From contig CANKGV010000001.1 in assembly GCA_947481575.1 (NCBI GenBank), positions 1 to 64,000 on the forward strand: a stretch of DNA of 64,000 bases, written 5' to 3'. Below, piece by piece: positions 38,093 through 52,311 of this stretch. The DNA comes from Alphaproteobacteria bacterium (GTDB lineage Bacteria; Pseudomonadota; Alphaproteobacteria; UBA2966; CAIVPW01). Each line of letters starts with the position of its first letter. The stretch's first letter is position 1. The translations under genes and the position numbers were made by a program. The notes under the pieces were generated by a model. The model was not told where the DNA came from. It was given only the letters and a program-made list of their open reading frames with translations, and did not search any database.

Positions 38093-38109
38093 GCCGCAAA
38101 TATAGGCCG

Positions 38110-38892
38110 CTACAGCGACCGCGCCACCCGGAAGCCCACGTCCCACTCCCGGTGCACGGGGTCGACGGAGCCGCGCATCGCCGAGCGCGCGACACCAACT
38201 TTGTTGTTCCAGGTGCCGCCCCGCAGCACCCGGTCGGTGCCCTCGCCCGCCGTCCACGCCTCGCCGTTCTCCGGCGCACCGGCGTAGGTCGGATGGTAGC
38301 GGTCCTCGACCCACTCGATCAGGTTCGAGTTCATATTGACTAGGCCAAACGCATTCGGCGCCGAAACCGGATCCCCCGCTGGGCCACCCTGGTACACATA
38401 GGCGGCGACGGTGGTGCCGAACGGGTACGGAGTCGTTGTGCCGGCCCGCGCTGCGTACTCCCATTCGGCCTCGCTCAGCAGCCGGTATTCCTTACCGGTC
38501 TTCGCCGACAGCCACGTCACGTAGGCCTTCGCTTCGTTCCAGTTCACGGTCCGCACCGACAACTCCGGCCGCGGCCAACCATGCGAGTCGGGACGATAGC
38601 GCCCGCAGCCGCCATCGGCGGCGCAGGCGTCCCACTGAGCAAACGAAAGTTCGAACTTGCCGACGGCAAACGGCTTGGCGATGGTGATGCGGTGCACGGG
38701 CCCCTCGTCGGCACCACGGCCCGCTTCCCCCGGCGGCGATCCCATAAGGAAGCTGCCGGCCGGCAGCACCACCATCTCCGGGCAATTGTCGCAGTCGCGA
38801 AACGCACTACCAGGCGCAGGCGCGACTTGAGCTTGGGCCGCTTCGGCAACAAGGCAAAGCACGGCAAGCGCTGCGGCAACCAATACCTTCAC
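38110..38892 (-). CDS. Exported SUMF1/FGE-sulfatase domain protein, probably non-catalytic
   Basis: A 260-residue protein with a signal peptide (cleavage near AQAQ) and a formylglycine-generating-enzyme fold: FLMGSPPGEAG, PVHRITIAKPFAVGKFE, LLSEAEWEYAARAGT, NAFGLVNMNSNLIEWVEDRY and RVLRGGTWNN. Real FGE enzymes have two catalytic cysteines shortly after the RGGS/T motif; here the segment is NNKVGVARSAMRG, without Cys. No sulfatase gene is nearby. It is thus more likely a binding or structural member. Two cysteine pairs (DCDNC and CAADGGC) may form disulfides. Confidence 0.85.
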   Translation of the reverse strand: MKVLVAAALAVLCLVAEAAQAQVAPAPGSAFRDCDNCPEMVVLPAGSFLMGSPPGEAGRGADEGPVHRITIAKPFAVGKFELSFAQWDACAADGGCGRYRPDSHGWPRPELSVRTVNWNEAKAYVTWLSAKTGKEYRLLSEAEWEYAARAGTTTPYPFGTTVAAYVYQGGPAGDPVSAPNAFGLVNMNSNLIEWVEDRYHPTYAGAPENGEAWTAGEGTDRVLRGGTWNNKVGVARSAMRGSVDPVHREWDVGFRVARSL

Positions 38893-38941
38893 GGCGGCCC
38901 TCCCGAAGTTCAGCGGGGAATGCTAGCGCGAACTCGGCGGG

Positions 38942-39169
38942 TCAGGGAGACTTGTTGGGCGGGACTTGAATCCAAGCGAACCGCGGCACGGTCTTGCCTT
39001 CAACTACCACGTGTTCTTCGAACATCGCGCGCGGGCGCACCCACAGGCCGCGAGCGCCGTAGAGCGCCCGATACACCACGAACTCCTCGCCGGTTTCAGA
39101 GTGCGTGGCACAGCCGACGACTTCGTATTCGTTGCCCTTGTAGTGCCGGTAGAGTCCAGGCTCGGTCAT
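38942..39169 (-). CDS. DUF1653 domain protein
   Basis: A 75-residue, single-domain protein matching the DUF1653 family (GLYRHYKGNEYEVVG, then TGEEFVVYRALYG and WVRPRAMFEE). The function of the family is unknown; the fold is small and beta-rich. It begins with a plain ATG and lies alone between the SUMF1-like gene and the DUF3185 gene, both on the same strand. Confidence 0.85.
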   Translation of the reverse strand: MTEPGLYRHYKGNEYEVVGCATHSETGEEFVVYRALYGARGLWVRPRAMFEEHVVVEGKTVPRFAWIQVPPNKSP

Positions 39170-39248
39170 CGCCGCTCGGCCTCGCTATCTCACCCACGCA
39201 TTCGCGATCATAGCGCTCCGCGGTAGCAGGCCCGGCCAACCAGAAGCG

Positions 39249-39452
39249 CTATACGCGCCGGCCGAACATGGCGAGCAGGCCACCCGACGCCATTAGGGCC
39301 ACGCCGCCCATGACATACCACATGGTGTGATTCGTATAGCGACCGGTCAGAGTCTCGGCGACTTGGTCGAGTGGCGCCTGCGAGTAGTGGTAGCCGAAGC
39401 CGAGCAGCACCGCCCCGATGACGACGGCAACAATTCCGATGGGTTGGTTCAT
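39249..39452 (-). CDS. Small DUF3185 membrane protein
   Basis: A 67-residue protein with two predicted membrane helices (about 5-23 and 45-62) joined by a loop with SQAPLDQVAETLTGRYTNHT, the DUF3185 pattern. The ATG at 39452 follows AGGAG by seven bases; the frame upstream is unrelated. The function is unknown. It belongs to a group of small genes here whose relatives are often stress-induced. A large hairpin separates it from the gene upstream. Confidence 0.8.
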   Translation of the reverse strand: MNQPIGIVAVVIGAVLLGFGYHYSQAPLDQVAETLTGRYTNHTMWYVMGGVALMASGGLLAMFGRRV

Positions 39453-39520
39453 GGTGGTCTCCTGTGGACGAATGGCAGCGCCTAGTTGCCGTCGCATGTG
39501 CAAATCCCGAAATCAATCAC

Positions 39521-39551
39521 GGCGACCGCGACCCTGGGGTCAGCGGTCGCC
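39521..39551 (-). terminator. Large hairpin downstream of the DUF3309 gene
   Basis: GGCGACCGC and GCGGTCGCC form a nine-base-pair outer stem with a further inner GACCC/GGGTC pairing, making a nearly unbroken hairpin about 12 bases after the DUF3309 stop. No long T run follows. It probably ends or stabilises the csbD-DUF3309 transcript. Confidence 0.55.
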
Positions 39552-39562
39552 GGTTGGAATAG

Positions 39563-39721
39563 CTAGATGCGGCCCGTAAGCAGCAAAATCACCACGATGA
39601 TGACGACGATTCCGATGCCGCCGCTGGGGAAGTAGCCCCAGCCCCTGCTGTGCGGCCACGCGGGGAGCGCACCCACAAGAATTAGGATGAGGAGGACGAG
39701 GAGAATGGTGTTGAGGCTCAT
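39563..39721 (-). CDS. DUF3309 small membrane protein
   Basis: A 52-residue hydrophobic protein: one helix from MSLNTILLVLLILILVGALP, a short loop WPHSRGWGYFPSGG, then a second helix IGIVVIIVVILLLTGRI. This is the typical DUF3309 sequence. The ATG at 39721 has GGAG upstream. The gene lies 24 bases after csbD on the same strand, so both are probably in one transcript. The role is unknown; relatives are common in stress-related clusters. Confidence 0.85.
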   Translation of the reverse strand: MSLNTILLVLLILILVGALPAWPHSRGWGYFPSGGIGIVVIIVVILLLTGRI

Positions 39722-39745
39722 TGCGGTGCTCCGGTCAGGCTGCGG

Positions 39746-39919
39746 CTATTTTCCGGACAACGTGTCCTTCAGACCGCCCACGGCGTTCTGAATCTTGCCT
39801 GCGGCCTTGTCGGTCTTCCCCTCAACCTTCAGCTTGGAGTCGCCGACGATCGTTCCGACGGTTTCTTTGATCGCGCCCTTCATCTGTTTCACGGCGCCTT
39901 CGACACGGTCCTTGTTCAT
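39746..39919 (-). CDS. CsbD-like stress protein
   Basis: A 57-residue, charged, helical protein with the CsbD family pattern (MNKDRVEGAVKQMKGAIKE, then VGDSKLKVEGKTDKAAGKIQ). Relatives are small general-stress proteins of unknown action. The ATG at 39919 gives the usual length. The long frame upstream was rejected. It is divergent from the OmpA-like lipoprotein gene across a 343-base gap. Confidence 0.9.
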   Translation of the reverse strand: MNKDRVEGAVKQMKGAIKETVGTIVGDSKLKVEGKTDKAAGKIQNAVGGLKDTLSGK

Positions 39920-40262
39920 CTTGCGATACTCCTGGCTGGTCTCGCGCATTGCTGCGCAGCGATCGGTGGTTGCCGGCCATGGGTACCAGGAAACACGCGG
40001 AGGCCATGTTCCGGATAGCACAGGCTGGATTCCGCGTCGGATCATCGCGGCGTGCCGCATTCCGCCTTGCCCCGTCACAAAGCCGCGACGGGGTGGCCGA
40101 GGCGGAAGCACTGCTAGATCCCGTCTTCATTCGAAGCGGGAAGTGAGCACCATAATAATTACTTTGTAGCGTGTGCCGCCCGGCACACATGAACCACAAT
40201 GTGGCGCGTATTCATGGTGACAGATGCAGCAAACATTTGCTGTCGATCGAGAGGTCACCAAG
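39920..40262. other. Long intergenic region between csbD and the OmpA-like gene
   Basis: No gene is supported in these 343 bases. It contains a perfect inverted repeat GTGTGCCG-CC-CGGCACAC at 40171-40188 just after the only AT-rich patch (ATAATAATTACTTTGTAG, 40152-40169). CATGAA and TTCATG flank CCACAATGTGG at 40189-40217. These are likely promoter and operator parts for the OmpA-like gene. No clear general-stress sigma factor promoter was found on the csbD side. Confidence 0.5.
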
Positions 40263-41204
40263 ATGAATTTCCATGATATTCAACAGTCACTGTTGGAGAA
40301 TCGCCGCAAGATTTGGCTGGCTCTTCCGGTCGGTCTTCTGATTCTGGGCGGTTGTTCTTCCGGCAACTCTGCCTACAACAAGACGACGGACGGCGGTTAC
40401 CACGCGCGCAGCAATAGCCCCGGCTACAAGGCGCTGCAGGACGGCAACTACGTGTACGCGGCCCAGTACTTCGAGGCCGCCAACCGCGAAACGCCGAACA
40501 ACCCGTACTTTGAACTCGACCTCGCCGCTGCCTACCAGCGTCAGGGCCGGATGGCCGAAGCAGAGCCACTGCTACGCCAGGCGATGCTGCATGGCGCGGA
40601 TGAAGACCCGGTCGCCTGGACCACCAACCTCGCCGAGAACCACTCGGTCGCCGAAACCGCGTGCCAGAACCTCGACATGGGGCTGACGATCGCGGCGACC
40701 CCAGGGATCGCGACCGAATGCCAGCGCTACCGCACCGTGGCTTTGGCTGAACCCGTGGCCGCGCCGACCCCTGCAGTTGCCGTGCCGGTGTTCCAGCCGG
40801 CGTTCGTTCCGGTGGCAGTCGCGGTTGCCGCCCCCGTGGCGGCTCCGGTGGCGCAGCCTGCGTTCGTACGCGGCACCTCGCGCGGCTTCATCTACTTCGA
40901 CTTCGACAAGTCGGGGCTGACCCCAACCGGCAAGGATCAGGTCAACACTTTCGCGGCCGAATTGCGCAGCGACATGGCCGTCCAGGTCGTTCTGCTCGGC
41001 AAGGCCGACCATCCCGGCACTGATGAATACAACATGGAGCTCTCGGATCGCCGTACGACCGAGGTCCGGAACGCACTCATCGCGGCGGGGATTTCCGGGA
41101 ACCGCATTACCTCCCACTACGTGGGCGAGCGCGAAGCTCCGGTAGTAACGGCCGAGGACACTCGGGAACAGCGCAACCGCGTGGTTGAACTGACCATCAA
41201 CTAG
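40263..41204 (+). CDS. OmpA-family lipoprotein with TPR-like region
   Basis: A 313-residue protein. The ATG at 40263 has GAGAGG upstream and leads to a lipobox ending LLILGGC. After it come a helical TPR-like segment (about 50-125: ALQDGNYVYAAQYFEAANRE, LAAAYQRQGRMAEAEPLLRQ), a Pro/Ala/Val linker and a C-terminal OmpA-like domain from about residue 205 (FIYFDFDKSGLTPTG, LSDRRTTEVRNALI). It is probably anchored in the outer membrane and bound to peptidoglycan, like a second Pal. Confidence 0.88.
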   Translation: MNFHDIQQSLLENRRKIWLALPVGLLILGGCSSGNSAYNKTTDGGYHARSNSPGYKALQDGNYVYAAQYFEAANRETPNNPYFELDLAAAYQRQGRMAEAEPLLRQAMLHGADEDPVAWTTNLAENHSVAETACQNLDMGLTIAATPGIATECQRYRTVALAEPVAAPTPAVAVPVFQPAFVPVAVAVAAPVAAPVAQPAFVRGTSRGFIYFDFDKSGLTPTGKDQVNTFAAELRSDMAVQVVLLGKADHPGTDEYNMELSDRRTTEVRNALIAAGISGNRITSHYVGEREAPVVTAEDTREQRNRVVELTIN

Positions 41205-41246
41205 CCGCCAAGCGCTGCGCTGCAGCAGCGCCTCTCCTCACGACAC

Positions 41247-41290
41247 GGCGCCATCGTCGCAAGATCTGCACGATGGCGCCGTCCGTTTGT
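41247..41290 (+). terminator. Hairpin after the OmpA-like lipoprotein gene
   Basis: GGCGCCATCGT and ACGATGGCGCC form a perfect 11-base-pair stem around a 12-base loop, 42 bases after the stop. It is followed by GTCCGTTTGT, a weak T-rich stretch. This is likely the terminator of the lipoprotein gene and separates it from the 31-residue reading frame after it. Confidence 0.6.
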
Positions 41291-41315
41291 GCGCCCCCTC
41301 ACAGGATGGACTGAC

Positions 41316-41411
41316 ATGAACACGTACACGATCGCCAGGATTGCCCTCGGCCTGCTGGCCGTAACGACCCTGGCCGCGTGCATCGGCGTGATCTTCCCGG
41401 TGCCGGTGTAA
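41316..41411 (+). CDS. Small putative lipoprotein (31 residues)
   Basis: The frame encodes MNTYTIARIALGLLAVTTLA then ACIGVIFPVPV. It has a hydrophobic signal-like segment with a lipobox (TLAAC, Cys22) and a short tail. AGGA lies nine bases before the ATG. It would leave a lipid-anchored peptide of ten residues, like small entericidin-type lipoproteins, but no family is recognised. The gene ends eight bases before the convergent FAD oxidoreductase stop. The coding call is moderate. Confidence 0.5.
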   Translation: MNTYTIARIALGLLAVTTLAACIGVIFPVPV

Positions 41412-41419
41412 CGGCCACC

Positions 41420-42868
41420 CTACTCGGCGTAGTGGCGCAGCAGCAGGACGTTGTACTTCATGACGTCGTTCAGCGACTCGAAGCTTGCCGAACTGCCTGC
41501 GTACCAAGTGTCGTGACGGCCCTGCATCGCGAAGATGTCCCACGGCAGGCCTTCGGCAACCGCCGCGGCCGGAAAACGCGGGCAGTACGCCCACCGGCAG
41601 CGCTGCACGATTGATAGGTCGGCGAAGCCGAGTTGCCGCATCTCCGGCGCGAAACTCTGATCGAGATCTGCGAGCACAGCTGGGCCATGGGCGTCTTGGC
41701 GGAACTGATAGGCCACGCCCAGCGCGGGGCCGATATTCGCCGCCGGCGCCAGAAAGCGCCGCTCGCGCACGCCACTGACCGACAGTGTGGGATTGGGTGT
41801 CAGCGCGTCGGCGACGTTCAGCGCGTAGGCCGTCGCGGGCCAGCGGGACGCCTTGAACAGTGTCGTAACGAACGACGAATGGAGGAACTGCCCAAAGATC
41901 CGCTGTTCGTCGTCGCTCGGCTGCGCGAGGTAGCCGAGCGAACCGCGGAGATCGCCCGATAGAATGATCTGGTCGAAGCGCTCCTCGGTAGCTCCATTCT
42001 CGGTCCGCAGCGTGACGGCAACCGGCCGGCCGCCACCCGGGCGTTCGATCGAAACCACTTCACAACCCAGCCGGATGTCGAGTTGGTCGCGCGCCGCGAT
42101 GGTGGTGAACAGGCTCTGGCTGCCCCGGTCCACCGCCGAGACGATCGGCCGCCGGGTTAGCCCCAGCCGGGTCAGGATGAACGACACCACGAAGCGGCGC
42201 TCGTTCCACAGCAGCGGATAGAACGACGGCGAAGTCTCCAGCACGCCATAGCCCTGCGCCGATGTGGCCAAGCGGAAAAACGGTTCCAGAATCTGCAGGC
42301 GGCAACGTTCCATGAGTTCGCCGAACGGCGCGGCAAGTTCGCGCAGGACCGCCGGGGTGGGGCGGTCGCTCAGTGGGTAGTAACCCCGGCCGAGGAGCCG
42401 GTTGCGCTCGGCCACGAGCCGCCGCACGGCACCCAATGCGTCGATCAGGCGCCGCGCAGCGCCGCCAGGCCGCAGGGTGCCGGACCGGATCAGCCGGTCC
42501 GTTAGGTGGCCGGTCCAGGCATCGAGGCTGTAGGTGGTGAGGCTGCCGGAGAATGCCGCAGTGACCACGTCGCGGGCCAGCGCGGGCGGAGAAACCACAC
42601 GGCCGGCGTCATACTGGGCGAGCAAGCGCCGATATTCATCGTAGTTGGAGGGGACGTAACACGCACCCATCTCGAAGACGGTGCCATCGTGAACCACCGA
42701 CAGGGACTTGCCGCCGACCCGGGTGTCGCGCTCCAGCACGGTCACCCGGCCGAACCCGCGCTGCTTCAGCAGATGGGCTAGGTGGACCCCGGCGGGACCG
42801 GCGCCGACGATACCGATGCGGTGCCGCCGCAGCAGACGCGGTGCCGTTTGGCCGGTAGTCCCGGTCAT
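41420..42868 (-). CDS. FAD-dependent amine oxidase-like oxidoreductase
   Basis: A 482-residue flavoprotein with an N-terminal Rossmann motif (IGIVGAGPAGVHLAHLLKQR) and an FAD-binding VLERDTRVGGKSLSV, as in the NAD(P)-binding-8 and flavin amine oxidase families. The rest contains the substrate domain; no specific substrate is evident. The ATG at 42868 has AAGGG upstream. It lies 23 bases from the degenerate tRNA-Val copy, so before the island inserted it was probably directly downstream of the tRNA gene. Its promoter region may therefore be changed. Confidence 0.8.
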   Translation of the reverse strand: MTGTTGQTAPRLLRRHRIGIVGAGPAGVHLAHLLKQRGFGRVTVLERDTRVGGKSLSVVHDGTVFEMGACYVPSNYDEYRRLLAQYDAGRVVSPPALARDVVTAAFSGSLTTYSLDAWTGHLTDRLIRSGTLRPGGAARRLIDALGAVRRLVAERNRLLGRGYYPLSDRPTPAVLRELAAPFGELMERCRLQILEPFFRLATSAQGYGVLETSPSFYPLLWNERRFVVSFILTRLGLTRRPIVSAVDRGSQSLFTTIAARDQLDIRLGCEVVSIERPGGGRPVAVTLRTENGATEERFDQIILSGDLRGSLGYLAQPSDDEQRIFGQFLHSSFVTTLFKASRWPATAYALNVADALTPNPTLSVSGVRERRFLAPAANIGPALGVAYQFRQDAHGPAVLADLDQSFAPEMRQLGFADLSIVQRCRWAYCPRFPAAAVAEGLPWDIFAMQGRHDTWYAGSSASFESLNDVMKYNVLLLRHYAE

Positions 42869-42891
42869 CGTCCCTTGGCCCCCAAAGCCCG

Positions 42892-42941
42892 GGAATGGTG
42901 GGCGCGCCTGGATCGAACCAGGGCCCCCTAAGACGTCAACG
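42892..42941 (-). repeat. Degenerate duplicate of the tRNA-Val 3' part (att-like)
   Basis: Bases 42892-42924 match 45051-45083 at 32 of 33 positions (one G deleted) and the similarity continues, with changes, through GTCAACG. This covers the CCA end, acceptor strand, T arm and half of the anticodon arm of tRNA-Val. The 5' half of the tRNA is missing, so it cannot be functional. It is the expected distal attachment scar of an element integrated in the tRNA gene. Confidence 0.8.
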
Positions 42942-43112
42942 CCCGCGAAACGGCGGACGCAATTCAAGCGAACTCAGAATAGCGGAAAGCCGCAGAAATG
43001 AACTCGATTTGCGTGCGGATTGCCTGCCCCCAAATCGGTAAGAGGTGACAATCGCTTCGAATTGCCCAGGAGTTCTTCCCGCCGGGACACAGGGCCCATA
43101 CTCTGGCACCCG

Positions 43113-44825
43113 ATGTCCGACGCAATTCGCTGGTACGACGCCAATGCCGAAAATGTATCTCGGCGCTACGAGTCAATAGCGGCCGAGGCTGTCCACGGCT
43201 GGCTCGCCAACCTTCTGCCGAACGCCCCCGCGCTGGTATTGGATGTTGGCGCTGGGACTGGCCGAGATGCCGCTTGGCTCGCTTCAATGGGGCTAGAGGT
43301 CGTTGCCGTCGAGCCGTCCGGTGCAATGCTCACCGAGGCCCAACGTGCCCATCCATCGCCATCAATCCGGTGGATCTCCGACGCCCTACCAAGCCTCGAC
43401 AAAGTATTTCGCCTGGGGCTGTCATTCGACCTGATCCTGTTAAGCGCAGTTTGGATGCACGTTCCTCCCGCTGATCGAGCTCGCGCCTTCCGTAAGCTGA
43501 TCACACTCCTTAAGCCCGGCGGCTGCATTGCCATCACACTGCGGCATGGGCCAGCAGAGCCCGACCGCGGCATTCACGACGTTTCAAATGTTGAAATTGA
43601 GAAACTTGCACGTGCACATGGTGCTTTCGTCGAAAGAACCACCAAGAGCAAGGACGCACTTGGCCGCGACGCGATCACATGGACCCAGCTTGCTGTGCGC
43701 CTGCCCGACGATGGTAGCGGGGCACTACCGTTGCTCCGGCACATCATCCTCAACGACAACAAGTTTTCGACCTACAAATTGGCGCTGCTTCGTACACTTT
43801 GCCGGATAGCAGATGGCGCGGGCGGATATGCGAGCGATGCCGGTGACGGCGACGTTGCGGTTCCACTCGGCTTGGTCGGCCTCTACTGGGTGCGCTTATT
43901 CAAGCCGCTTCTCGCTGCCGGTCTTCCGCAAAATCCGACCAATCAGGGGGATGGACGGCTTGGATTCGTCAGAGACGGCTTTCGCAAGTTAAGCGGCGTC
44001 TCGCATCTAGATTTGCGCGTCGGCATGCGTTTCGGCGAGGACCGGTCGGCCGCGCTTCATTCTGCGTTACGCGATGCGTGCGAAACGATCACTCGCATGC
44101 CAGCACGTTTCATGACCCTTCCGGGTGGCGGGCCCGTCTTTCGGGTCGAGCGGATTGGGCGGGTGCCACGGCGAGGCACAATCCACCTGAACGCGACCTA
44201 TCTTTCCAGTTTTGGTGAACTATTCGTCCCACGGCATCTGTTTCGCGCGCTCCAGCGCTTCGACGTATGGATTGAGCCAGCACTCGTCGCTGAATGGTCG
44301 AGGCTAATGACCAGCTACGCCGAGGGGCAAGGGCGAAAACTATCGGAGGCCGGGATCGCTGCGGCGATGGCCTGGTCGGAGCCAAGCCGCGATGTGCGGA
44401 TCGCTAGAGATCAAGCCGTTCGGCTCATGAAGTCTGGCAAGCTGTATTGCGTCTGGAGCGGCCGTGCACTTTCCGCCGACGCTCTCGACGTCGACCACTG
44501 CTTCCCGTGGTCCGCATGGCCCTGTGACGATCTTTGGAATCTTCTTCCGGCACATCGCGACGTAAATCAGAAGAAGAAGCGCAACAAACTGCCCGGCGCT
44601 GAGCTGCTTCGATCAGCCCAAGGCCGAATCCAGGAATGGTGGGACAAGGGATACTTGAAGGCCCCCAACCAAATGTTGTCCGAGCGGTTCATGACCGAAA
44701 CGAAGGCGACCCTACCGGTCATCGAGCGCGTCGACTTTCAGGTCGGCGATGTATTCGACGCGTTGAACATGCAGCAGATTCGCTTGAAGCACGATCAACA
44801 AATTCCGGTTTGGGAACCCACGTAG
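43113..44825 (+). CDS. Class I SAM methyltransferase fused to HNH endonuclease
   Basis: A 570-residue protein. Residues about 35-150 form a Rossmann methyltransferase: motif I LVLDVGAGTGRDAAWL, then VVAVEPSGAML, and LLKPGGCIAITLR. Residues about 195-430 are unassigned, beginning HIILNDNKFSTYKLALLRTL. Residues about 440-500 are an HNH nuclease: LYCVWSGRALS, then DVDHCFPW with D461/H462, LWNLLP with N476, and VNQKKKRNKLP. The zinc cysteines of many HNH domains are missing. The ATG at 43113 has no clear ribosome site; CATACT 11 bases upstream could be a -10 for a leaderless message. Domains are clear; a defence role is inference. Confidence 0.85.
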   Translation: MSDAIRWYDANAENVSRRYESIAAEAVHGWLANLLPNAPALVLDVGAGTGRDAAWLASMGLEVVAVEPSGAMLTEAQRAHPSPSIRWISDALPSLDKVFRLGLSFDLILLSAVWMHVPPADRARAFRKLITLLKPGGCIAITLRHGPAEPDRGIHDVSNVEIEKLARAHGAFVERTTKSKDALGRDAITWTQLAVRLPDDGSGALPLLRHIILNDNKFSTYKLALLRTLCRIADGAGGYASDAGDGDVAVPLGLVGLYWVRLFKPLLAAGLPQNPTNQGDGRLGFVRDGFRKLSGVSHLDLRVGMRFGEDRSAALHSALRDACETITRMPARFMTLPGGGPVFRVERIGRVPRRGTIHLNATYLSSFGELFVPRHLFRALQRFDVWIEPALVAEWSRLMTSYAEGQGRKLSEAGIAAAMAWSEPSRDVRIARDQAVRLMKSGKLYCVWSGRALSADALDVDHCFPWSAWPCDDLWNLLPAHRDVNQKKKRNKLPGAELLRSAQGRIQEWWDKGYLKAPNQMLSERFMTETKATLPVIERVDFQVGDVFDALNMQQIRLKHDQQIPVWEPT

Positions 44826-45054
44826 CGGACTGGGGCCACACAAGGGCATTGCATCGATCACGAGCAAGATCTGCGAATCGCGAATACCGGTTGGCGCCAG
44901 CAATCTCGACGCTCGAACCGATTCGGCGCTTCACATCATCAAGGCCCAAGCTGCGAGAACCACTACAGAGCCCATTTAGGGCGCGTTTTGGTTGGGATCC
45001 AGTGGGGATTCAAATCGGCCAGCCAGGGAAAATCCCGCTAACCATCGAAAGGAA

Positions 45055-45130
45055 TGGTGGGCGCGCCTGGGATCGAACCAGGGACCCCTACGATGTCAAC
45101 GTAGTGCTCATACCGCTGAGCTACGCGCCC
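45055..45130 (-). tRNA. tRNA-Val (anticodon GAC)
   Basis: Read on the minus strand, the 76-base gene has acceptor GGGCGCG/CGCGCCC, D arm GCTCAGCGGTATGAGC, anticodon arm CTACG-TTGACAT-CGTAG with anticodon GAC, T arm CCTGG-TTCGATC-CCAGG, discriminator A and an encoded CCA. All stems are fully paired. The 3' part is duplicated at 42892-42941, marking the gene as the integration site of the island downstream. Confidence 0.97.
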
Positions 45131-45272
45131 ATTCCCGGCCGGGCGTGACCGCCCAGCGCGAAAAATCGCCGCCATATCACCTACAACCTGCCTCGTTGGC
45201 AAGCGCGCGGTTTGATCCCCCTATGGTGCGGCCTCCTTGCGTCAAAGCGCGCTTCACCCGTAAGAAGGTTTC

Positions 45273-46190
45273 GTGGGTACCTCCAGCGCTTCCTTAGCGG
45301 CGCGTCTCCAGCATCCGCCTGGACCGCGGCAGCCGTTTGAAATCCTGGCACCGGCGGCGCAGTCGGTGCCGTTGGTGTTCGTGTCGCCGCATTCCGGCAC
45401 CGACTACGATCCCGCGTTTGTGGCGTCTTCGCGGCTCGACATGACCACCCTGCGCCGATCGGAAGACAGCTTCGTCGACGAATTGTTCCAGGCCGCGCCC
45501 GCTTCCGGGGCGCCGCTGCTGCGCGCCCACTTTCCGCGCGTGTACCTGGACCCGAACCGCGAACCGTGGGAACTGGACCCCACCATGTTCGAGGACGAAC
45601 TGCCGGCGTTCGTGAACACGTCGTCGCTCCGCGTGGCCGGCGGTCTCGGCACGATCGCCCGCGTGGTGACCAACGGCGCCGAGGTCTATCGCGGCAAGCT
45701 GCGGTTCGCCGAAGCCGAACGGCGCGTGCGCCAGCTGTACATCCCATTCCACGAAGCGATCCAGGACCTGCTCGCCGCCACCGTGGACCGGTTCGGCGTG
45801 GCGCTCCTGATCGACTGCCACTCGATGCCATCGGTGGGCGGACCCATGGACCGCGACCCCGGCCACGAGCGCGCCGACATCGTGCTGGGCGACCGCTACG
45901 GCACCAGTTGCGCCCACGGCATCACCGAGGCCGCAGAGCGGTACCTGTCCCGCGCCGGACTGCGCGTGGCCCGCAACGATCCCTATGCGGGCGGATTCAC
46001 CACCCGCAATTATGGGCGGCCCGAATCCGGCGTCCACGCGCTGCAGATCGAGATCAAACGGTCGCTGTACATGGACGAGGCGCGCATCCTGCCGTTACCT
46101 TCGATGGCCGCGGTGAAGGCGATCGTCACGTCGCTGATCAGCGTGCTCGCGTCACTCGATCACCACGCGCACCGGGAGCAGCGCCGCTAG
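45273..46190 (+). CDS. N-formylglutamate amidohydrolase family protein
   Basis: A 305-residue metal-dependent hydrolase of the FGase family, which includes HutG-type enzymes of histidine breakdown. Motifs are FVSPHSGTDYDPAF (metal His), DPNREPWELDP, LIDCHSMPSVGG and HALQIEIKRSLYMDE with the catalytic Glu. No other hut genes are near, so the physiological substrate is open. The GTG at 45273 follows AAGAAGG. Its stop overlaps that of amrS on the opposite strand within CTAG. Confidence 0.9.
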   Translation: MGTSSASLAARLQHPPGPRQPFEILAPAAQSVPLVFVSPHSGTDYDPAFVASSRLDMTTLRRSEDSFVDELFQAAPASGAPLLRAHFPRVYLDPNREPWELDPTMFEDELPAFVNTSSLRVAGGLGTIARVVTNGAEVYRGKLRFAEAERRVRQLYIPFHEAIQDLLAATVDRFGVALLIDCHSMPSVGGPMDRDPGHERADIVLGDRYGTSCAHGITEAAERYLSRAGLRVARNDPYAGGFTTRNYGRPESGVHALQIEIKRSLYMDEARILPLPSMAAVKAIVTSLISVLASLDHHAHREQRR

Positions 46191-47341
46191 CTTCCCGCTG
46201 CCTTGCGCCGCTGTTCCAACTGCGCGGCGAAGCGCTTGAGATTGACCGGCATCCGCCGCGCCCCCCAGGTTCCCGGCGGACCGTCAAACACTCCCGGCAT
46301 CGGATAGCCGCACGCATTGCACTTGCCTTCGCCGGTTAGCGCCCACGTGCCGAGGGTGTGCCAGTTGCGGCCGATCACCTTGGCGCCGCAGCCCGGGCAG
46401 TAGGTGGAACTGCCCTCCTCGTCGTGCACGTTGCCGACATAGACGAAGCGCAGGCCGGCCCCGCGGGCGATCGCACGGGCGCGGGTGAGCGTCGCGTGCG
46501 GCGTGCGCGGCAGATCGGTCATGCGGTAGTCCGGATGGAACGCCGTGAAGTGCAGCGGCACATCCGGGCCCAGGTTCTCGGCGAACCATTCGGACAGCGC
46601 GGTGATCTCTTTCTCGCCGTCGTTTTGGCCCGGGATCAGCAGCGTGGTGACTTCGAGCCACGTCGAGGTTTCGTTGTGGATGTACTTCAGCGTGTCCAGG
46701 ACCGAGTCGAGACGGCCGGTGCACAGTCGCTTGTAGAAGTCCTCGGTGAACGCCTTCAGGTCGACGTTGGCGGCATCCATGTAGCGGTACATTTCGCGCG
46801 CCGGTTCGGGGCAGATGTAGCCTGCGGTGACCGCGACAGTCTTCACGCCCACCGCGTGGCACGCCTTGGCGACATCGACCGCGTATTCCAGGAACACCGT
46901 CGGATCGTTGTAGGTGAAGGCGACGGAGCGGCAGCCGGCGGCGAGCGCGGCCTTGGCCAGCAGCTCCGGCGACGCCGCATCGGCCAGCGTGTCCATCTGG
47001 CGCGACTTCGACATGTCCCAGTTCTGGCAGAACTTGCACGTGAGGTTGCAGCCTGCAGTGCCGAAACTGAGGATCGCGGTGCCCGGCAGGAAGTGGTTGA
47101 GCGGCTTCTTCTCCACCGGGTCGACGCAGAAGCCCGACGAGCGGCCGTAGGTGGTGAGCACCATGGCGCCGTCCTTGGCGGCGCGCACAAAGCACAGGCC
47201 ACGTTGGCCATCGTTGAGTTTGCAGAAGCGCGGGCATACGTCGCACTGCACGCGGCCATCGGCCAGGGTGTGCCAATAGCGCGCCGGTACGCCCTCGATC
47301 ACGTCCGGGGCTTCCGCTGCAGGTGCCGTTTCTTGCGTCAC
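46187..47341 (-). CDS. amrS: AmmeMemoRadiSam system radical SAM enzyme
   Basis: A 384-residue radical SAM protein. The cluster motif CNLTCKFC (C98, C102, C105) is preceded by an extra cysteine group (CDVCPRFC) and followed by a C-terminal CPGCG/CNACG zinc-type pair. AFTYNDPTVFLEYAVD is typical of the family. Its chemistry is unknown; it co-occurs with Memo and AMMECR1 proteins. The GTG at 47341 starts just before the conserved region. A much longer upstream frame crosses amrB and is not real. Its start lies 27 bases from that of the divergent amrB-amrA gene. Confidence 0.92.
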   Translation of the reverse strand: MTQETAPAAEAPDVIEGVPARYWHTLADGRVQCDVCPRFCKLNDGQRGLCFVRAAKDGAMVLTTYGRSSGFCVDPVEKKPLNHFLPGTAILSFGTAGCNLTCKFCQNWDMSKSRQMDTLADAASPELLAKAALAAGCRSVAFTYNDPTVFLEYAVDVAKACHAVGVKTVAVTAGYICPEPAREMYRYMDAANVDLKAFTEDFYKRLCTGRLDSVLDTLKYIHNETSTWLEVTTLLIPGQNDGEKEITALSEWFAENLGPDVPLHFTAFHPDYRMTDLPRTPHATLTRARAIARGAGLRFVYVGNVHDEEGSSTYCPGCGAKVIGRNWHTLGTWALTGEGKCNACGYPMPGVFDGPPGTWGARRMPVNLKRFAAQLEQRRKAAGS

Positions 47342-48963: not shown

Positions 48964-51900
48964 ATGGGGATGGCCAAAACAGCCACGGGCGCGAAGGATT
49001 CCGCCGTTACTACCCATAACCACGCGACAACCAGCCCCATCATCGGTCATCTCGGCAGCGGTTTCCGCCGCGCCATTCTTAGCGCCACGGCGTTGGCGCT
49101 GGTCCTTTCCGTTGCTGTGCTGATGGTTCCGCGCGCGCCCGCACACGGCGCGCAGCCGCCCGCGCGCACTGCGGCGGCGCCGGCCAAGACGGCGGCGGCA
49201 CCCGTCAAAGCAGCTGCGGTAGCGGCCAAGACCCCCGTAGCACCGGCACCCAAGCTGACCGTCACCGCCACCCCGTTTGCGGGCGGCGTGCTTCGTACGG
49301 TCGTCATCGAAAAGGGCAGCACCTTGCTGTCCGCGTTGATCGCTGCGGGCGTGAACAACGACGCCGCCAACGACGCAATCCGTGCTCTGGCGAAGCAATT
49401 GGACCCGAATAAGGTCGCGCCCGGCCAGAAGATCGAAGTGCTGTTCGCCGGTGCGCAGATGCGCGTGTCTTCGGTGCGCCTGCCGATTTCCGCCAGCAAG
49501 GGCGTCCAGGCAGTCGCCGCCGCGGGGAACTTCACCGCATCGACCTACGACCCGAGCCACGTGCCGGCACCGGCCACCGGCCCCCTGGTATGGGTCGACG
49601 GCGGCGTAACTTCGCGCACCTTGGAACTGAAGGCCGGCCAGACGCTCATGGCCGCGGTGTTGTCGCTGGGCGCCGACCGCCTGGAAGCGGACCGCGCGGC
49701 CGCCGCGGTGGGCAAGCTGTTCAACGTGCGCAAGATGCAGGTGGGGCAGCACATCACCGCGATCTTCGGCGACGGCATGCAGTTGTTGGGCCTGTCGGTT
49801 TCGCTGGACGGCGATGCGGAGGTTGCCGCGTACCTTTCCGAGGCCGGCGCGTACGAGCCGACCCGCACGACTGCCGACGAGCGCGCCGAACTGGCCGCGA
49901 CCGTGGGCCAGCGTGCGCCCGTGCAAGACCTGCCGGACGTTGCCGCCACCCCGCTGCCGCTGCCGGTCGCGATCAAGACGGGCGCCATCGGCAAGGGCGA
50001 CACGCTGATCGACGTGATGCTGCGCCTGGGCGCCGGCCGTGCGGAAGCGGCAGCCGCGAGCCAAGCAGTGGGCACTGTGCTGAACTTGCGCCAACTGCAG
50101 ATCGGCCAAAGCGTGGCCGCTTCGTTCGGCCAGCGCGACGGCGACCGCGCCCAGCGCCTGATCGCCGTTTCCGTGGCGACGGGCCCCGACAAGGAAGTGG
50201 CCGCCATCATCGCCGCCGGCGACGAATTCACGGCGCTCCGCACCACGCCGGCCCAGCGCATCCAGCGCCTGGCGGCGATCGTGACGCCCGCCGCGCCGGC
50301 GCCGATTGCGGCAGCGCCCACGGCGGTGGCCGACGCCGGCACCGCCGCGGCGAACGCACCGCTGCAGCCCCTCGATCTGGCGACGACGTTCCACACCGCC
50401 ATCGCCGGTGAGACCATCGTCCGCGCTGCCACTACCTTGGGCGCCAACCTGAACGACGCGTTGTTGGCGGCCCAAGCGCTGGCAGAAGAGTTCCCGACGG
50501 GCCAACTGGCCGAGGGCCAATTGGTGACCGCCACCCTGGGCCGGGTCGCGGCCGGCGGCGAGACGCGATTGCTGGCGCTGTCGATCGTCATGGCCGCGAA
50601 CGACGAGATTCTGGCGCTGTTGACCGAGGACGGCGCATTCGAGACCGACCACATGACCCCGGCGGAGCGCGCCAAGCTGATCGCCGAATCCCTGGCGCCG
50701 CGGCCCCAAGCCGAGGACGTGGTGGCGGAAGCGGACACCGGCGACGACGTGCCGGGGCTGGTGGGCTACGACCACAACATCCAGACGCTGATCGTGAGCC
50801 GCGGCGACACGCTGCTGAGCGCCGCCATGAACCTGGGCGCCGCGCGTGCCGATGCGGTGGGCGCCATCGAAGCGCTGACCACCCTGTTCGACGCCCGCAG
50901 CCTGCGCGTGGGCCAAGTGATCGAGGCTACCTTTGGCCGCATCGAGCGCGATGGGCCGATGCGCCTGCTGGCCCTGGCGCTGGCGGTGAACTCGAACGTC
51001 GAAGTGGCTGCGTTCCTGAGCGAGACCGGCAACTTCGCGCCACGCACGCTGACCAAGGAAGAACACGAGCAAATCGTTGCCGCGGTGACGGGCGAAGGCG
51101 TGCAGGACGTGTTGGCGACGCCGGCGAAGGCCGTGCCCGCGGTCATTGCCGCCGCACCCTCCCCCACGCCCGGGTTTGAGTGGCTGGCGACGATCGACCG
51201 CTCGGTGACAGTAAAGCCGGGCAGCACGCTGCTGGAAGCGGTGCTTTCGGCCGGGGCGACCCAGCAGGACGCCCACGACGCCATCGAGGCGCTGACCGAG
51301 ATCTTCAACCCGCGCCAGCTGCAAGCCGGACAAGTGATCCGCTTGAGCTTTGGCGGTGCCGACCAGGGCGACTGGAGCAAGCGCTTGGTGGCGGTGAACC
51401 TGCCGCTCAACGTGGAACGCGAAGTGGCGGCGCTGCGCGCGCCCACCGGCGATTTCGGCTCGAAGGAGATCGTGAAACCCCTGGGCCTGGACGTGGTGCG
51501 GGCCTCCGGCACGATCGGCGACAGTTTGTTTGGTGCGGCGGCCAAAGCGGGCGTGCCGAGCACCGTGATCATGGATCTCGTGAAGATCTTTTCGTGGGAC
51601 GTCGACTTCCAGCGCGACATCCAGACCGGCGACAAGTTCGACCTGATGTTTCAGCGCTACGTCGACGATCACGGCAACCCGGTGAAGGTGGGCGCGATCC
51701 AGTACGCTTCGCTGACGCTGAGCGGCACGACCTTCAAGCTGTACCGGCATGAAACCGCCGATGGCGTGATCGACTATTACAACGAGCAGGGTGCCAGCGC
51801 GCGCAAAGCGCTGCTGCGCACGCCGATCGACGGCGCGCGCCTTACTTCCACCTTCAGCAACTCGCGCATGCACCCGGTGCTGGGCTATAGCCGCGCCCAC

Positions 51901-52311
51901 AAGGGCGTGGATTTCGGTGCGCCGATGGGCACGCCGATCCAGGCAGCGGGCGACGGCATCATCGAGTTCGCCGGTCCGTTCTCGGGCTACGGCAATTACC
52001 TGCGCATCCGCCACAACTCGGACTACAAGACCGCCTACGGCCACATGACCGCGTTCGCCAAGGGCATCCGCCCAGGCGTGAAGGTGCGCCAGGGCCAGAT
52101 CATCGGCTATGTCGGCATGACCGGCCTCGCCACCGGCCCGCACCTGCACTACGAGATCCTGGTGCATGACACCCAGGTGAACCCGCTCGCGGTGAAGATG
52201 GCGATCGGCAAGAAGCTGGAAGGCCGCGAGTTGGCCCAGTTCCAGGGCGTGCGCCAGAAGACCGATGTGGCGCTGGCCACCGTGCCGGCCCTCAGGCTCG
52301 CCGCGAAGTAG
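48964..52311 (+). CDS. Giant M23 metallopeptidase with seven tandem OapA/LysM-like modules
   Basis: An 1115-residue protein. After a basic N-terminus and one membrane or signal helix (about 35-57) come six related modules beginning near residues 112, 217, 336, 475, 605 and 744, each with a V-x-x-G-x-TL start, a ten-residue helix and a Q-x-x-x-GQ-x-I strand, and then the canonical OapA/Csd3-type module near 846. The peptidase domain (about 955-1080) has HPVLGYSRAHKGVDFG, YGHM and GPHLHYEIL, so the LytM zinc site is complete. Relatives in most bacteria have one or two such modules. ATG 48964 or 48970 could be the start. It likely cuts peptide cross-links for growth or division. Confidence 0.93.
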   Translation: MGMAKTATGAKDSAVTTHNHATTSPIIGHLGSGFRRAILSATALALVLSVAVLMVPRAPAHGAQPPARTAAAPAKTAAAPVKAAAVAAKTPVAPAPKLTVTATPFAGGVLRTVVIEKGSTLLSALIAAGVNNDAANDAIRALAKQLDPNKVAPGQKIEVLFAGAQMRVSSVRLPISASKGVQAVAAAGNFTASTYDPSHVPAPATGPLVWVDGGVTSRTLELKAGQTLMAAVLSLGADRLEADRAAAAVGKLFNVRKMQVGQHITAIFGDGMQLLGLSVSLDGDAEVAAYLSEAGAYEPTRTTADERAELAATVGQRAPVQDLPDVAATPLPLPVAIKTGAIGKGDTLIDVMLRLGAGRAEAAAASQAVGTVLNLRQLQIGQSVAASFGQRDGDRAQRLIAVSVATGPDKEVAAIIAAGDEFTALRTTPAQRIQRLAAIVTPAAPAPIAAAPTAVADAGTAAANAPLQPLDLATTFHTAIAGETIVRAATTLGANLNDALLAAQALAEEFPTGQLAEGQLVTATLGRVAAGGETRLLALSIVMAANDEILALLTEDGAFETDHMTPAERAKLIAESLAPRPQAEDVVAEADTGDDVPGLVGYDHNIQTLIVSRGDTLLSAAMNLGAARADAVGAIEALTTLFDARSLRVGQVIEATFGRIERDGPMRLLALALAVNSNVEVAAFLSETGNFAPRTLTKEEHEQIVAAVTGEGVQDVLATPAKAVPAVIAAAPSPTPGFEWLATIDRSVTVKPGSTLLEAVLSAGATQQDAHDAIEALTEIFNPRQLQAGQVIRLSFGGADQGDWSKRLVAVNLPLNVEREVAALRAPTGDFGSKEIVKPLGLDVVRASGTIGDSLFGAAAKAGVPSTVIMDLVKIFSWDVDFQRDIQTGDKFDLMFQRYVDDHGNPVKVGAIQYASLTLSGTTFKLYRHETADGVIDYYNEQGASARKALLRTPIDGARLTSTFSNSRMHPVLGYSRAHKGVDFGAPMGTPIQAAGDGIIEFAGPFSGYGNYLRIRHNSDYKTAYGHMTAFAKGIRPGVKVRQGQIIGYVGMTGLATGPHLHYEILVHDTQVNPLAVKMAIGKKLEGRELAQFQGVRQKTDVALATVPALRLAAK

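Follow-up and report, generated by a model that had tools for sequence, protein, structure and literature searches.

A methyltransferase-HNH nuclease fusion as the only gene of a remnant tRNA-Val island: a probable defence protein with a putative methyltransferase gate

In the stretch of alphaproteobacterial DNA analysed here (64,000 nucleotides, referred to as the window), a gene encoding both a methyltransferase and an HNH nuclease is the only coding gene between tRNA-Val and a decayed repeat of that tRNA. This raises the question of whether the gene is mobile and serves in defence and, if so, what a methyltransferase does in one chain with a nuclease. The features of the locus are as follows.

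42891-42941, no strand: att-like remnant, a decayed copy of the tRNA-Val 3' half (repeat alignment)
43113-44825, plus strand: coding sequence of the 570-aa methyltransferase - middle domain - HNH fusion (open frame; AlphaFold2 model)
43113-43700, plus strand: class I SAM methyltransferase module, residues 1-196 (Pfam, structure match, conserved columns)
43701-44387, plus strand: middle domain, mostly helical, residues 197-425 (alignment of relatives, structure comparison)
44448-44594, plus strand: HNH_4 (Cas9-type) nuclease core, residues 446-494 (Pfam, alignment, structure)
45051-45101, no strand: matching att half, within and adjoining tRNA-Val (repeat alignment)
45055-45130, minus strand: tRNA-Val (GAC), intact, with the island at its 3' end

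The fusion gene was intact, with an ATG start and 570 encoded residues, in an open frame that extends to 607 codons. Its GC content was 0.594 (GC3 0.649), whereas six other genes in the window had 0.63-0.69 (GC3 0.77-0.87); it occupies the lowest-GC stretch, and GC was lower in just 0.5% of 1.7-kb windows, which overlap the fusion gene itself. The two repeats matched at 47 of 51 positions with one gap, corresponding to the 3' half of tRNA-Val(GAC) from the anticodon loop outward; in local alignment they scored 38, and no other segment of the window scored above 12. No integrase gene was present between tRNA-Val and its decayed repeat. Because the repeat at 42.9 kb is decayed and no integrase lies between the repeats, we regard the island as a remnant. 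In relatives of the same family, tRNA-Val stays beside the N-formylglutamate amidohydrolase gene and its opposite flank varies (about 2.0 kb in G001, 5.7 kb in G004 and 7 kb in G007), and in a sister genome (G005) a phage-type tyrosine integrase (Pfam E 3.7e-24) abuts the same tRNA-Val. The variable flank and this integrase, together with the lack of one between the repeats, indicate that the fusion gene is the cargo of a remnant tRNA island. A duplicated tRNA 3' end, foreign composition and an integrase at the site in relatives, the features of tRNA-integrated genomic islands, were all found. The initial annotation had described a single 570-residue protein with methyltransferase and HNH parts, encoded by the sole gene between att-like repeats at tRNA-Val and differing from its neighbours in base use. 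Each of these points was borne out (by Pfam matches at residues 42-137 and 446-494, by the list of open reading frames with the repeat alignment, and by GC and GC3), and the single-gene tRNA island that it proposed is supported as mobile and refined here to a remnant. Two other parts of the window drew attention: the region at 38100-42900, beyond the att remnant, with OmpA-like and FAD amine-oxidase genes, is also unlike the relatives at the tRNA-Val site, and the gene at 48964-52311 encodes a 1115-aa protein with several repeats of about 120 aa (GDTLLxAxxxLGAxxxDAxxA...) followed by an apparent C-terminal M23 peptidase domain.

The methyltransferase part was recognised by Pfam as Methyltransf_25 (residues 42-137, E 6.7e-16). 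In an AlphaFold2 model of the 570-aa fusion (pLDDT 88.3, pTM 0.85), residues 1-199 matched class I methyltransferases with Z 19-22 (UbiG, ChlM, NTMT1, METTL6 and others), and the Foldseek list for this part was headed by E. coli CmoM. Among the best structural neighbours, the substrates are small molecules, tRNA and the N-termini of proteins. With a Rossmann-like fold, GxGxG motif I and an acidic SAM-binding loop, the predicted module is a class I SAM-dependent methyltransferase, whose landmarks are the SAM motif DVGAGTGRD, E67, W114-M115-H116, R144 and R152. The region of motif IV reads LLSAVWMHVPP, in which the (D/N/S)PP(Y/F) of amino-DNA-methyltransferases is missing and the WMH is invariant in fused relatives; a PC motif is absent from the methyltransferase sequence as well. 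Judged by these motifs, the target is probably not a DNA base. The initial annotation was right in noting that NPPY is lacking, and its suggestion of a target other than DNA gains support. A compact restriction-modification enzyme, whose methyltransferase would modify host DNA while the HNH domain cuts unmethylated DNA, would account for two activities in one chain and for the many nuclease neighbours that are restriction enzymes (see below), but we consider it decidedly unlikely in view of the motifs just described, the kinds of methyltransferase that are structurally closest and the lack of a recognisable target-recognition domain. Residues D44, G46, G48, G50, E67, D90, H116, R144 and R152 were invariant in HNH-fused, membrane-protein-linked and stand-alone forms, and the active site as a whole was invariant in nearly all relatives, fused or not. 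This constancy of the pocket argues for catalysis on a shared substrate. In PADLOC the fusion protein matched only mad2, through the methyltransferase part alone (2.8e-17), and neither PADLOC nor NCBIfam held a model for the full-length fusion. The likeness to Mad2 of the MADS system is generic, since three unrelated control proteins matched the mad2 profile too, and membership of MADS was rejected.

The middle domain (residues 197-425), with the motif K(S/F)STYKLALLRxLxRIAD, had no meaningful Pfam or NCBIfam match, nor was a target-recognition domain recognised in it. A weak fold match to the sulfur-binding domain region of ScoMcrA (Z 6.7, rmsd 6.5) had no profile support (hhalign probability 0.2%), and identity with a sulfur-binding domain gained no support beyond that fold match. 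The nuclease could be assigned more closely: Pfam HNH_4 matched residues 446-494 (E 1.2e-7), and the C-terminal part matched the HNH domains of Cas9 proteins in structure (Z up to 7.7, Acidothermus Cas9) and in sequence (E 0.0087). Its core is intact (DVDHCFPW, N476, N485, K489), carries the DH...N...N/K residues of Cas9-type HNH (HNH_4) domains, and has D459, D461, H462, N476, N485 and K489 invariant in 23 relatives. Against viral structures, only short generic HNH matches were obtained. The fusion protein had no Pfam match to RuvC and so is not of the Cas9 or IscB kind; an Rfam search over 41000-46500 returned only the tRNA, no tandem repeats were found, and association with a guide RNA was rejected on these grounds. 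A homing endonuclease was likewise rejected, as no intron or intein host was seen.

About 20 full-length relatives with 40-82% identity were found in assemblies of five phyla (Pseudomonadota, Nitrospirota, Acidobacteriota, Actinomycetota and Planctomycetota), and further relatives on plasmids. The window protein grouped with proteins of a Nitrospiraceae MAG (82%) and a Rhizobium MAG (79%), both known from MAG contigs in which binning errors are possible; this grouping points to horizontal transfer. The HNH module was patchy, being present in 6 of 385 genomes of the class. Genes near the relatives were often those of restriction enzymes. For example, in Marinobacter the gene for a PLD-helicase-DUF3427 type IV restriction enzyme overlaps the fused gene, HNH_2 enzymes lie near fused genes at four loci (L022, L024, L028, L029), a DUF4420/MzaD-like protein at another (L021), and McrBC on a Roseomonas plasmid. 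At 20 further loci, the models matched among 99 neighbours (PADLOC E<=1e-15) included mREase_IV (4 proteins), HNH (2) and type I models, as well as ZorD, DpdE, MzaE, LmuB and NERD-UvrD, compared with mostly housekeeping look-alikes (such as DinG, IscS-like DndA and SspA) among 99 control proteins taken from the same genomes at shifted positions; these counts refer to models rather than systems, and the control is one sample. Restriction and defence genes are thus enriched near the relatives relative to control regions of the same genomes. Clustering of homologues near defence genes, the check proposed by the initial annotation, was therefore found (type IV, HNH_2, Mza and McrBC neighbours; plasmids), and the opposite case that it named, homologues as core genes in housekeeping contexts, was not observed for the fused proteins but was seen in part for some alphaproteobacterial stand-alone methyltransferases, which lie beside cobT, clpB and genes of that sort. 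From the position of relatives in defence islands and on plasmids, the fusion protein probably has a role in defence. We also considered that a decaying island gene had been kept by chance, as selfish or non-defence cargo with a metabolic methyltransferase. The mutated att remnant, the absent integrase and the homologues that are frameshifted or interrupted (L041, L043, L006) fit such a history, but the open reading frame in the window is unbroken and retains every invariant residue, intact relatives at 40-60% identity exist in several phyla, and their neighbourhoods are those of defence genes, which makes this explanation very unlikely.

As a reused module, METHYLTRANSFERASE was found in 36 of 398 genomes of the phylum, fused to the HNH nuclease, fused to a membrane protein or standing alone. 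New here is the occurrence of the same methyltransferase module unfused beside other restriction-type nucleases or helicases, or paired or fused with a membrane-type protein. In gammaproteobacteria, a stand-alone methyltransferase gene lay directly before that of an HNH_2 enzyme (L139, L143) or a helicase matching type IV models (L144); at L140 it directly preceded, and overlapped by 1 base, a PLD-helicase-DUF3427 gene. A split version was found at L141, with the methyltransferase followed after 8 bp by a middle+HNH protein that aligned collinearly with the fused module over two stretches (E 1.4e-9), and at L135 and L194 a fused or stand-alone gene was convergent with a PLD-helicase. In genome G515 the same split nuclease adjoined a different small class I methyltransferase; at this locus (L192:5866-8010) the middle+HNH protein has an S24 (LexA-like) peptidase domain, which is also present in the PLD-helicase of L140. 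Another genome (G704, L194:3715-7845) has a stand-alone methyltransferase of the window protein's family and, facing it, a TehB-like methyltransferase paired with a PLD-helicase. Proteins near members of this family (L142:4489-6372 and L198:4157-6091, the latter with no Pfam match) and near an SBD-HNH enzyme (L075:139-1470) resemble the DNA-phosphorothioation-associated putative methyltransferase. In the tree, the gammaproteobacterial stand-alone methyltransferases beside nuclease genes nested inside HNH-fused clades, consistent with partner exchange. Several alphaproteobacterial stand-alone forms formed separate branches and had no nuclease neighbour, so that some stand-alone members may serve outside defence; at L145, a gammaproteobacterial member is flanked by tsf and pyrH.

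The partner found in lambdoid phages and prophages of E. coli (phi458, L066, L068) is a protein of 190-213 aa that has several hydrophobic helices and precedes the methyltransferase. This version is present in 29 of 5,426 complete E. coli genomes, and in Sphingomonas and relatives a hydrophobic membrane-type protein and the methyltransferase are fused; membrane topology was read off the sequence rather than taken from a dedicated predictor. The two-gene unit of E. coli temperate phages occurs at L054:2336-3519, L066:5420-6591 and L068:2703-3950; it stands right after the integrase in phi458 (Orf2 and Orf3), and a PAPS-reductase-like gene adjoins it in L066, L068 and the E. coli genomes. An association with membrane-type proteins in temperate phages and in Sphingomonas, with the effector partners varying around a constant methyltransferase module, would suit abortive infection, in which the methyltransferase fold senses the SAM level or a phage product and frees a toxic nuclease or membrane protein, and the cell dies. 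However, H116, R144 and R152 are invariant beyond what SAM binding involves, for which a pure sensor has no obvious need, and we hold this explanation to be unlikely.

We lean instead towards a mobile single-gene restriction-like defence protein, in which the nuclease would be gated by a methyltransferase that does not act on DNA bases. The HNH domain would cut invading DNA, which the middle domain may help to bind. The methyltransferase would be an active enzyme whose substrate is a small molecule (nucleotide-like or other), RNA or a protein. It may serve as a licence or gate, either keeping the nuclease from doing harm while the cell is uninfected or arming it once infection occurs. That the module is kept while its partners change speaks for a role in controlling or licensing the partner, and against one in marking DNA at a specific sequence. 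The same gate might be reused, as a neighbouring gene or a fusion, with other restriction-type nucleases and with the membrane-type protein. A more speculative extension, which we put forward tentatively, is that a portable methyltransferase not acting on DNA is a general immunity switch combined with four or more kinds of effector (Cas9-type HNH, HNH_2, SauUSI-like PLD-helicase and membrane protein), of which the window protein would be the most compact form. Marking DNA is what the methyltransferase does in the restriction systems that are known. If the gated-nuclease reading is true, a methyltransferase without DNA-base chemistry would provide a different way of discriminating self from non-self, or of silencing a nuclease. 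The pairing recurs across several lineages as well as among E. coli prophages, which makes it amenable to direct testing in a laboratory strain.

In the papers searched, we found neither a methyltransferase-HNH fusion nor a defence system made of a methyltransferase and a membrane protein; the prophage version may have been described before, for instance in Brenes and Laub 2025 (E. coli prophage defence; cited in PMC13092281). Among known systems, type IIG and other single-chain restriction-modification enzymes also combine methyltransferase and nuclease in one polypeptide, as the initial annotation had pointed out in proposing a type IIG-like design. The comparison fails because the window protein is without motif IV of amino-DNA-methyltransferases and without a recognised target-recognition domain, and because its nuclease is HNH, whereas that of type IIG is PD-(D/E)XK. 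Cas9-type HNH domains (HNH_4, PF13395) share the fold and residues of the nuclease core, but in the window protein no RuvC, bridge helix, guide RNA or CRISPR was seen and the partner is a methyltransferase. The type IV enzyme ScoMcrA (SBD-HNH) is similarly a single-chain HNH enzyme with a helical domain, which reads DNA in ScoMcrA and resembles the middle domain weakly in fold but without sequence support; the SBD-HNH enzymes in PMC7461809 have no methyltransferase part, unlike the window protein. SauUSI-like PLD-helicase-DUF3427 enzymes turn up repeatedly as genomic neighbours, and at L140 and L194 such an enzyme has a small class I methyltransferase as its own partner. A single polypeptide suffices for the activity of SauUSI, which has no methyltransferase partner (PMC3874153), and enzymes of this kind combine a PLD nuclease with an ATPase, whereas the window protein carries an HNH nuclease.
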